33,308 bases of DNA, taken from assembly GCA_025058515.1 (NCBI GenBank), contig JANXDW010000013.1, positions 1-33,308 on the forward strand. Reading direction: 5' to 3'. The notes beneath the pieces are model-generated. The model saw only the letters and a program-made list of their open reading frames with translations. It was not told the DNA's origin and ran no database searches. The stretch is from Aigarchaeota archaeon (lineage in GTDB: Archaea > Thermoproteota > Nitrososphaeria_A > Caldarchaeales > Wolframiiraptoraceae). A program made the translations under genes and the position numbers. Positions 3,336 to 29,686 of this stretch are shown here, one piece after another; position 1 is the first letter of the stretch, and each line of letters starts with the position of its first letter.

Positions 3336-4412
3336 TCAACTTTTCTCTTTATCTTTAGCTTCTTCAAGCTTCTTTCTAACTATGATGCTCACTCTCCCAG
3401 CCACTTTCTCCGCTATCTCCATAAATGCTTTACTTGCAGGAGAGTCTGGGTCTCTTATTACGACCGGTCTACCCATATCACCACCTTCTCTAACCTCTTG
3501 AGCTAATGGTATCTCACCTAAGAACGGTATATTCAATTCTTTACATATTCTGTAGGAGTTTCCGTATCCAAAGATCTCTGATCTAGAGCCACAGTTTGGG
3601 CAGATGAAGTAGCTCATGTTCTCGATAACTCCAATCACCTCTACCCCTAGCTTCATAAACATTCTCAAAGCCTTTAAAGCTATTCTTAAAGCAGCATCTT
3701 GTGGAGTGGTAACTATTATTACTCCCGTTAAAGGAATTATCTGAGATAGAGTAAGAGGGGCGTCACCAGTTCCAGGTGGTAGGTCAACGATCAAGTAGTC
3801 TATCTCACCCCAATCGACTTTATTTAACATTTCTTCTATAGCCTTCGCAACTAGTGGTCCTCTCCATATAACTGGTGCATCCTCAGGGATTAGTAAACCC
3901 ATGGACATAGTCTTTATACCCATGTAGGAGAGACTCGGCTCTATTCTATCTTCACCTATATAGAATGGTGGGCGAATTATATCGAGCATCTTAGGTATAG
4001 TAGGACCATATACATCAGCATCAAGTAGACCTACGCTTGCCTTCTTAGATGCTAATGCTAAAGCTAGATTCACCGCTACAGTAGACTTACCTACACCTCC
4101 CTTACCACTTGCAACAGCTATTACATTCTTTACATTAGGGATCTCTTTAGATAATGGTTGAGAGATAACTCTAGAAGTAATCTTAATCTTAACATCCTTA
4201 ACTTTATCTATCTTCTTAACCGCCTCTCTCGCTCTCTCCTCTAATACACTTTTAAGAGGACATGCAGGAGTAGTAAGCTCTAAAACAAATGATACAACAC
4301 CATCATCAGATATCTTTATATCCTTAACCATACCTAAGCTAACAATATCCTTCCCAATCTCAGGATCAATAACACTTCTCAAAGCATCCAGAACCTTCTC
4401 CTCAGAAATCAT
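3336..4412 (-). CDS. Mrp/NBP35-like P-loop ATPase, Fe-S cluster carrier
   Basis: Cytosolic scaffold or carrier thought to bind and transfer Fe-S clusters. From the chosen start there is an N-terminal MIP18/DUF59 domain (residues about 2-80, with DPEIGKDIVSLGMV and TTPACPL). It is followed by a deviant Walker A ATPase domain (VASGKGGVGKST near residue 101, LPPGTGDAPLT) and the CPNC pair that ligates the bridging cluster. The fusion of DUF59 with an Mrp ATPase is the usual ApbC architecture. The frame can be extended to an ATG at 4463, adding 17 mostly hydrophobic residues unlike the family, so 4412 is preferred. A TATA-like stretch near 4482-4492 would allow either start. Confidence 0.93.
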   Translation of the reverse strand: MISEEKVLDALRSVIDPEIGKDIVSLGMVKDIKISDDGVVSFVLELTTPACPLKSVLEERAREAVKKIDKVKDVKIKITSRVISQPLSKEIPNVKNVIAVASGKGGVGKSTVAVNLALALASKKASVGLLDADVYGPTIPKMLDIIRPPFYIGEDRIEPSLSYMGIKTMSMGLLIPEDAPVIWRGPLVAKAIEEMLNKVDWGEIDYLIVDLPPGTGDAPLTLSQIIPLTGVIIVTTPQDAALRIALKALRMFMKLGVEVIGVIENMSYFICPNCGSRSEIFGYGNSYRICKELNIPFLGEIPLAQEVREGGDMGRPVVIRDPDSPASKAFMEIAEKVAGRVSIIVRKKLEEAKDKEKS

Positions 4413-4463
4413 TGCTACTAAACTAACTACCACCCACGATAAAAACATTTCCAAATTACACAT

Positions 4464-27921: not shown

Positions 27922-28194
27922 ATGCCGCGGGGAGTATTAGCTATAATACATGTATTTGTTGATTCATCTAAGTTAGAGTACGTAGCTGAAGAGATCAATA
28001 AACTAGAAGAAGCTCTAGATGTATATGAAGTCACTGGAGAATTCGATATAATCGCTATAATGAAGTCGGATGACATAATTGGTTTTAGGAAGCTCTTGAA
28101 AGATAAGATACTGAAGATAGAAGGAGTAAAGAGTACCGTAACATCTATAATTCTCTTCACACATAAGAGAGATGGGAGACCTATAGAAGAATGA
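27922..28194 (+). CDS. Stand-alone Lrp/AsnC ligand-binding (RAM) domain
   Basis: A 90-residue protein consisting only of the ligand-sensing domain of Lrp/AsnC regulators, without a helix-turn-helix. The beta-alpha-beta-beta-alpha-beta pattern is visible in VLAIIHVFVD, the helix KLEYVAEEINKLE, the core ALDVYEVTGEFDIIAIMKSDD and IEGVKSTVTSIIL. Such stand-alone RAM proteins form dimers and higher rings that bind amino acids. The ATG at 27922 starts 2 bp after the transporter stop, and the stop overlaps the next ATG (ATGA). The context suggests that it senses an amino acid for the upstream transporter. Confidence 0.88.
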   Translation: MPRGVLAIIHVFVDSSKLEYVAEEINKLEEALDVYEVTGEFDIIAIMKSDDIIGFRKLLKDKILKIEGVKSTVTSIILFTHKRDGRPIEE

Positions 28195-28625
28195 GCAAAT
28201 CCCGTGCCTATAAAGCTCTCTTAGTAGTTGAAGAATACGTAAATCTTAAAGCTCTCGCACACTTACTAGAGTTTATTTCTAGAAATGTAGAGATAACTTT
28301 TCTACATGTAGTAGAATTTCCTCTTCCAACATCTATCTATCCAGAGACTGTGGCCCCTTACATTGAGAAAGCTAAAGAAAGATTTAGAGAACTTTTAGAT
28401 TGGGCCAAATCTCAAGAGATAAAAGCTGAGTTGAAAGTTGTTGCATCTAGAGATTTATCTGAAGCAGTTTTAACTGAGCTTGAGAATGTTGAGTATGACT
28501 TTATAATAATTCAAAGGGAAATAAAGAAAATTAAGAGAAAGATTAGGGAGTTGTTTCGTAGGACTTATCTTGAGAAGATCGTTGATAAGACTAGGCGGGT
28601 GGTCATAGTTCTTCCTTTTAGCTAG
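28191..28625 (+). CDS. UspA-like protein without the nucleotide-binding motif
   Basis: A 144-residue universal stress protein fold: KALLVVEEYVNLKALAHLL, EITFLHVVEFP, a long central helix (KAKERFRELLDWAKSQEIKAEL), then DLSEAVLTELENVEYDFIIIQR and a last strand VVIVLP. The G-x2-G-x9-G-(S/T) phosphate loop that ATP-binding Usp proteins carry between the last strands is replaced by basic sequence (KKIKRKIRELFRRTYLEKI), so nucleotide binding is unlikely. It is translationally coupled to the RAM gene (ATGA). With the transporter it forms a three-gene cassette. Its TAG stop overlaps the stop of the convergent acidic gene. Confidence 0.82.
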   Translation: MSKSRAYKALLVVEEYVNLKALAHLLEFISRNVEITFLHVVEFPLPTSIYPETVAPYIEKAKERFRELLDWAKSQEIKAELKVVASRDLSEAVLTELENVEYDFIIIQREIKKIKRKIRELFRRTYLEKIVDKTRRVVIVLPFS

Positions 28626-28750
28626 AATTCTTCTTCCTCTTCTTCCTCGAATTCTTCCTCCCAGCCTTCTTCCTCCTCTTCCTCGAACTCCTCCTCCCAC
28701 TCTTCTTCTTCATCCTCCTCAATCTTGAAAATTCTATCCTCCAACTCCAT
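28622..28750 (-). CDS. Ultra-acidic 42-residue repeat protein
   Basis: A short frame encoding MELEDRIFKIEEDEEEE followed by two 12-residue units, xWEEEF plus six Glu, and a final EEEF-like end. In total 27 Glu and 2 Asp occur among 42 residues, with Trp at 18 and 30 and Phe at 22, 34 and 42, the last being the C-terminal residue. The non-acidic amphipathic start (LEDRIFKI) and the aromatic spacing argue for a real protein rather than a chance open frame. It is convergent with the UspA-like gene and the stops overlap. Acidic-aromatic peptides of this kind can mimic DNA or bind basic proteins (compare Sem1/Dss1 and acidic SSB tails); that is inference. Confidence 0.6.
   Translation of the reverse strand: MELEDRIFKIEEDEEEEWEEEFEEEEEEGWEEEFEEEEEEEF
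28631..28702 (-). repeat. Tandem 36-bp repeat inside the acidic gene
   Basis: Codons 17-28 and 29-40 of the acidic gene encode the same 12-residue unit with 11 of 12 identical residues (Glu versus Gly at the first position). The purine strand is nearly all GAG/GAA, making a polypurine tract on the minus strand. Confidence 0.8.
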
Positions 28751-29008
28751 AATCATTCAATAAATTAGATACAAATCTACTCATAAGGATTTCTTCTAAA
28801 GATGTTCTACATACATAAGGATTTACCTCTTTACTATATTCTAACATCTTACTCAGAGAAGTGATACATAATATTTGTTAGAGTGACAAGCTCCTTGAAA
28901 CTATGTTCTCCATAGTTGATATTAAAGAGAATCTATATTCTTCTACCATATGTTCATAGATGCTTGGATGGGTTGATGGATTTTGAGTTTCATCATCATT
29001 AGAAGTAG

Positions 29009-29686
29009 CTATCTGTGAAGAGATTTTAGTTTCTCCAGAGAGATACATGTTTTAATATGCTTTATGAATAGATAGTTATCTTTAAACCATTCAAGAAATC
29101 CTTTAATCTTCCTTATAGGTACATATGGATATCCTTCTACTATAAGCTCTCTAGGTTCATAAAGAGTGAGAACTACAGGTATTACTCTTACTTCTACTTC
29201 TCCATTAAATGATGTTAATGCTCTTATCCTTTCTTCCTGCATTGAGATTATCTTTCTTCTCTCACTATGAGCTGGAGGCTTAGCCCAGTGTTTACAATCT
29301 ACTACCAACAATACTGACTCCATTAGAGCTATCAAGTCGATCTGATATATTCTTCTTCTCAGAGGTATCCTAATATCTCGAAATACAGTATATCCAGCTT
29401 CTTTAAATAATTCTGCTGAGAGTTCTTCAAATTCTCTCCATGTTAAGTATCTTGCTATTCTATCTCCTTCTACTCCTTGACTTAGAGCTATCAAGGTTGC
29501 TTTAACTCTCTTAGATGATGTAGGCTCGCTATCGAGTGAATAAGATTTTAGAAAAGCTTCTACAATACTTTTCTCAACTAAGGCTTCTTTTGAGATCTCT
29601 TCAATTCTAACATTCTTATTTCTAGACGTAAGCTTGAGATAGGTTGTTACTATCTTGATAATGATGTCTTTAGAGAAATAGGTCAT
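29009..29686 (-). CDS. Predicted PD-(D/E)XK (Mrr-like) nuclease with an N-terminal helical domain
   Basis: A 225-residue protein. Residues 1-80 are helical and may include a winged helix (VRIEEISKEALVEKSIVEAFLKSY). The second part fits a restriction-endonuclease-like fold: helix LTWREFEELSAELFKEAGYTV with the first Glu, strand YQIDLIAL with the metal-binding Asp, then VVDCKHWA, where the acidic-x-K motif appears as DCK. This order is that of Mrr_cat-type nucleases. No methyltransferase lies nearby, so it is not an obvious restriction system; repair or defence are both possible. It overlaps the 3' end of cofE by 17 bp, so the two are co-expressed. Confidence 0.75.
   Translation of the reverse strand: MTYFSKDIIIKIVTTYLKLTSRNKNVRIEEISKEALVEKSIVEAFLKSYSLDSEPTSSKRVKATLIALSQGVEGDRIARYLTWREFEELSAELFKEAGYTVFRDIRIPLRRRIYQIDLIALMESVLLVVDCKHWAKPPAHSERRKIISMQEERIRALTSFNGEVEVRVIPVVLTLYEPRELIVEGYPYVPIRKIKGFLEWFKDNYLFIKHIKTCISLEKLKSLHR

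Follow-up and report, generated by a model that had tools for sequence, protein, structure and literature searches.

Does an open reading frame built almost wholly of glutamate codons, interspersed with tryptophan and phenylalanine, encode a genuine protein, and if so, what might that protein do? The question is raised by a frame at 28622..28750 on the minus strand of the window, by which we mean the entire 33,308-nucleotide stretch from an Aigarchaeota archaeon (order Caldarchaeales) that was analysed. Translation from the ATG at 28750 gives 42 amino acids and from an alternative in-frame ATG at 28756 (28622-28756) gives 44; the stop codon occupies 28622-28624, and the full sequence of this microprotein is MIMELEDRIFKIEEDEEEEWEEEFEEEEEEGWEEEFEEEEEEEF. 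On the same strand, an N-terminal module, MELEDRIFKI (28721..28750), is followed by a glutamate tract (28628..28720) that carries W20, F24, W32 and F36 (44-residue numbering) and by the codon for a C-terminal Phe (28625..28627). As recorded in the initial annotation, 29 of the 42 residues are Glu or Asp, the last residue is Phe and two 12-residue units are identical at 11 of 12 residues. The units, EWEEEFEEEEEE (28667..28702) and GWEEEFEEEEEE (28631..28666), lie in the tract and share 31 of 36 nucleotides in the DNA. Glutamate is specified by 13 GAA and 14 GAG codons. An Arg/Gly-rich frame (28470-28700, minus strand) has its GTG start inside the acidic gene, in another reading frame. Because similar R/G-rich frames overlap the acidic gene on the opposite strand in two other loci (L102 and L103), we regard such basic shadow frames as a by-product of GAR-rich DNA.

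Used as an ordinary protein query, the 42 residues had matches in only 4 of 101 genomes. The low complexity of the sequence makes such searches miss the family, and we therefore used DNA patterns and synteny. Two flanking genes served as markers: a convergent gene at 28191..28625 (plus strand), for a 144-amino-acid protein that has the look of a universal stress protein and no Pfam match, marks the locus in the genus and in Caldarchaeaceae-like relatives, and an upstream gene at 29009..29686 (minus strand), for a NERD/Mrr-type nuclease-related protein, marks it in the family. Frame breakage in close relatives had been named as grounds for doubting the gene; none of the five genomes of the genus shows such a break, and the same frame recurs in many genomes of the family and order. 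In the order, a C-terminal DNA pattern of four Glu codons, Phe and stop (EEEEF-stop) gave essentially one match per genome in 31 of 44 genomes, and the reversed-pattern control was near zero. The translatable matches encode ultra-acidic W/F proteins, except for the second match in one genome (G002), which is an 18-residue open frame.

Between two congeneric genomes (G001 and G004), we counted 13 synonymous changes and 1 non-synonymous change among 40 codons. The neutral expectation is 13-27% synonymous; P is therefore between about 6e-11 and 5e-7, according to the transition bias assumed. This is a real gene under constraint at the protein level. The 13:1 excess, together with retention of the frame across the genus, upholds the earlier suggestion of protein-level importance for the Trp/Phe spacing and the C-terminal aromatic residue, and a merely drifting GAA/GAG repeat, the other explanation then offered, fails to account for the changes.

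The recurrence of Trp and Phe with a period of 12, also reported at the outset, holds for the window microprotein but not for its relatives, in which the repeat is not conserved and aromatic residues are irregularly spaced (most often 3-8, mode 5). The 12-residue repeat is thus a species-level detail. Lengths differ between species, and the N-terminal module is kept within the genus (MELEDRIFK[IM] or MKLEDRIYKI), with other short hydrophobic or aromatic leaders elsewhere. Conservation instead concerns the acidic tract and the spaced W/F, and most members also end in an aromatic residue.

Across the phylum, EEE[W/F]EEE matches were found in 206 of 397 sampled Thermoproteota genomes, usually as one clustered locus on one strand, and the reversed control was near 0. 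The translated frames are mostly 20-60 amino acids long, with W/F separated mostly by 3-8 Glu (for example, MFEEEWEEEWEEEWEEEEWEEEW and MREEEEEWEEEEEEEWEEEEW); some single matches are unrelated larger proteins (L176 and L181). The collected frames are nearly pure Glu (2580 E versus 176 D), and the penultimate residue is Glu in 125 of all 128. Among 114 archaeal members that are distinct in their last 25 residues, the protein ends in W in 64, F in 38, Y in 1 and another residue in 11, so that 103 of the 114 have W, F or Y where the window protein has Phe. The terminal aromatic residue is not universal: members ending in V, I, L, P or T occur in f24 and, often, in f2 (a family of the window's own order), and members ending in Glu occur in f37, f42 and f70.

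Acidic tails also occur at the ends of other proteins. In f27, two loci (L164 and L165, in genomes G178 and G098) encode a zinc ribbon like that of the amino-group carriers LysW/ArgW, joined to an acidic W tail (NF041070, E 2e-9, below the cut-off; PDB 5k2m). The likeness to LysW/ArgW is confined to this family; the tail of LysW is EDWGE, whereas the window protein has neither a zinc ribbon nor an EDWGE tail, nor the C-terminal Glu of these carriers. A TATA-binding-protein look-alike (L311, genome G052, f13) has a comparable acidic C terminus, EEGGEELVEEEEFEEEL, and a rubredoxin- or zinc-ribbon-like protein on a bacterial-labelled contig (L122, a Caldilineales bacterium MAG) ends in LEDWDEEEEEWEEEEDWEEEEEEEF. 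Two viral-labelled IMG/VR contigs (L257 and L275) encode short acidic W proteins, MEEEEEWEEEDWEEEWEEEEEE and MKTKEEEWEEEEWEEEEEEE, without a C-terminal aromatic residue. A scan of viral contigs returned 44 scattered acidic matches, none with an ABCE1-type motif.

The window protein matched no Pfam family at E up to 10 and no NCBIfam model, and a PDB sequence search gave nothing meaningful; a match to AcrIIA4 (E 0.21) was put down to composition. AlphaFold, run on the single sequence, modelled one long helix (mean pLDDT 86, pTM 0.48). For a peptide so rich in Glu, such a model carries little weight, and the window peptide may be helical or disordered. A helical aromatic stripe of the coiled-coil kind was ruled out on the modelled helix, as the aromatic phases, worked out by hand, are spread around it.

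When we clustered the genes that flank the microprotein, the dominant neighbour was ABCE1 (Rli1), the Fe-S ribosome-recycling ATPase, recognized by its Fer4_RLI and ABC domains. We compared independent coordinate lists of ABCE1 and of an EEEW-stop pattern in 92 genomes, a sample weighted towards f5: among the matches listed, the two form a same-strand pair within 4 kb in 76 of the 92 genomes, and in 67 the pattern precedes ABCE1 by no more than 400 bp, again on the same strand (chance expectation for the pairing, about 0.014). In panels centred on ABCE1, linkage was seen in 25 of 30 genomes of a set dominated by f5 and in 10 of 30 of a deliberately diverse set; overall, it extends to at least 24 families. 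In most genomes with the linkage, the microprotein frame precedes ABCE1 by 45-200 bp, and in f5 a perfect ggaggtga Shine-Dalgarno sequence stands just before its start codon. Other neighbours include genes for CGI-121 (KEOPS), THUMP, Sua5/YrdC, a TFS-type zinc ribbon and asparaginase. This linkage is one of gene position; adjacency is not interaction. The sampled families f7 and f46, which we take to be ammonia oxidisers, have almost no microprotein matches, suggesting that ABCE1 can work without the microprotein. One genome (G044) has two microprotein copies (L151 and L152), of which only one is beside ABCE1, and another (G446, C62:5409-9082) has two tandem ABCE1 genes.

The arrangement varies. 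A TFS-type gene lies between the microprotein and ABCE1 in f8, f33 and f35, the distance reaches 2.3 kb in some genomes, and at one locus (L225) the two genes are divergently oriented. In the Caldarchaeales, f14, f15, f27 and f29, the microprotein is unlinked to ABCE1 and retains the same architecture. In the genome of the window, ABCE1 is on another contig (C31), with no acidic frame nearby and with neighbours that look like SBDS and exosome subunit genes. Linked and unlinked copies probably share one ancestor, as their common architecture and near single-copy occurrence suggest, the sequences being too simple for a tree. Because the microprotein persists when unlinked, with an interposed gene, in divergent orientation and sometimes fused to a zinc ribbon, we infer that it acts in trans. 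In the order of the window, the gene no longer lies beside ABCE1 yet has kept its sequence, which points to a function of the protein and not of a leader peptide only.

The explanation that we favour, and to which we give an even chance, is that this genuine, usually single-locus microprotein represents a phylum-wide family that ancestrally lay upstream of ABCE1 and acts in trans, as an acidic adaptor of the ABCE1 pathway. We infer the function in this ribosome-recycling pathway. Ancestrally, a separate microprotein gene would have stood directly upstream of ABCE1/Rli1. The Glu tract would hold the Trp and Phe 'stickers' exposed and attract a basic surface electrostatically; docking would, in most members, take place through the aromatic residue at the free C terminus. 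Apo-ABCE1 could then be handed to the Fe-S assembly machinery, the job done in eukaryotes by Lto1.

This last step draws on an analogy. In yeast, Lto1 uses its C-terminal Trp, which is Phe in certain organisms, to bring in the cytosolic Fe-S targeting complex specifically for Rli1 (PMC4523923); the recognized tail is [LIM]-[DES]-[WF]-COO-, and a free [DES]-[WF] end is a general signal (PMC10623007). Like Lto1 (with Yae1), the microprotein is small, is associated with ABCE1, in its case by gene position only, and has a C-terminal Trp or Phe after a typically acidic residue; the window protein ends in Phe. Unlike them, it is ultra-acidic, has multiple internal W/F and is archaeal, and no archaeal targeting complex has been demonstrated. 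The deca-GX3 motif of Lto1/Yae1 is absent from the 44-residue window protein, which has a single Gly. Its tail, E-E-F or in other members E-E-W, agrees with the last two positions of the tripeptide but not with the antepenultimate one, and the presence of Glu instead of Leu, Ile or Met before [E]-[W/F] counts against an Fe-S adaptor. So do the missing deca-GX3 motif, the members without an aromatic end, the internal W/F repeats, which are unnecessary for a simple C-terminal tag, and, to our knowledge, the lack of Cia1 in archaea. Archaeal Fe-S proteins have been reported to lack the [LIM]-[DES]-[WF]-COO- tail (PMC10623007), which is a further point against this reading and would also leave room for a separate adaptor. 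The unlinked position of the gene in the window's genome and its near absence from f7 and f46 weigh against the adaptor explanation as well. We therefore treat delivery of apo-ABCE1 to the Fe-S machinery, in the role of Lto1, as a tentative proposal that may well be wrong. Putative delivery through a C-terminal [E]-[W/F] is the most specific version of the adaptor reading; that a dedicated W/F microprotein would hand over apo-ABCE1 by such an aromatic tag, as a forerunner of the Lto1/targeting-tripeptide system, seems to us rather unlikely. Elsewhere in the window, a gene at 3336-4463 (minus strand) appears by eye to encode an ApbC/Nbp35-like ATPase whose N-terminal region is DUF59 (Cia2/SufT-like), a candidate Fe-S assembly factor.

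Other readings share part of this evidence. An acidic RNA mimic or ribosome-side regulator, which would bind basic surfaces on ABCE1, the small subunit or a translation factor, is almost as likely as the idea of an ABCE1 adaptor, and we consider it possible rather than probable. It would modulate recycling or re-association and have no role in Fe-S assembly. The same linkage to ABCE1 and translation genes speaks for it, an acidic tract with exposed aromatic residues suits nucleic-acid-binding surfaces, and in the single-sequence AlphaFold model the aromatic residues wind around a continuous helix without forming a stripe; taken alone, however, it leaves unexplained why W, F or Y is the last residue, after Glu, in about 90% of members. 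The short frame, the strong Shine-Dalgarno sequence and the distance of 45-200 bp to ABCE1 that most linked genomes show would also suit a leader peptide acting in cis on ABCE1 translation, in which a poly-acidic stretch would destabilize or stall ribosomes and so sense recycling capacity. Acidic nascent stretches and ribosome destabilization are discussed for bacterial regulatory small open reading frames and pausing (PMC8092293, PMC11282234). MgtL-type poly-acidic leaders are likewise short acidic frames upstream of another gene. In contrast to such leaders, the microprotein is kept when unlinked, has conserved aromatic residues and has a single-gene identity across the phylum. Copies of the same architecture that lie away from ABCE1, the interposed TFS-type genes, the distances of up to 2.3 kb, the divergent orientation and the fusions of the acidic tail to zinc-ribbon domains make a leader improbable, and a purely cis-acting one was mostly rejected because the gene is not upstream of ABCE1 in every genome, notably in the Caldarchaeales.

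The initial annotation had proposed a DNA mimic, a chaperone for basic or chromatin proteins, or a regulator of an OB-fold protein such as SSB, in the manner of Dss1/Sem1 or of SSB tails. Dss1 is acidic with W/F, and acidic SSB tails end in Phe, so the style of the sequence recalls both. Like Dss1/Sem1, which binds the proteasome lid, BRCA2 or RPA, the microprotein is very small and acidic, with Trp and Phe within acidic stretches, but its acidic residues are almost all Glu, with little Asp, its gene is linked to ABCE1 and it ends in an aromatic residue rather than in a C-terminal helix segment; the Pfam search of the window protein returned no Dss1/Sem1 model. It resembles the tails of E. coli SSB and T7 gp2.5 in being acidic and Phe-ending, but it is a free-standing gene linked to translation genes, with no OB-fold attached: the window protein has 44 residues, one predicted helix and no Pfam match. 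No linkage to replication or chromatin genes was seen, the neighbours being ABCE1 and tRNA-modification genes (CGI-121/KEOPS, Sua5 and THUMP), and these proposals, left without support, are in our view even more doubtful than a leader. That the frame is a non-functional repeat tract staying open by chance seems negligible. Low-complexity GAR repeats do expand and contract, and lengths vary between species, but the synonymous excess, the occurrence of essentially one copy per genome, the phylum-wide position beside ABCE1, the conserved ends and the Shine-Dalgarno sequence effectively refute this reading.

Full-text searches of open-licence papers turned up no account of an acidic archaeal microprotein linked to ABCE1. 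The family may have been reported elsewhere, and its mechanism may prove to be a variation on known acidic adaptor peptides. It appears to have stayed unnamed because a gene so tiny and of such low complexity readily escapes gene callers and is masked in searches. The trans-acting adaptor that we favour would belong to a gene family conserved across the Thermoproteota, a phylum that is one of the closest relatives of eukaryotes. Its position beside ABCE1, which is among the most conserved archaeal and eukaryotic proteins, gives a concrete link to ribosome recycling or to the route by which two Fe-S clusters enter archaeal ABCE1. If the proposal is true, an adaptor with a C-terminal aromatic tag would be a functional forerunner of the Lto1/targeting-tripeptide system that was previously reported to be absent from archaea.
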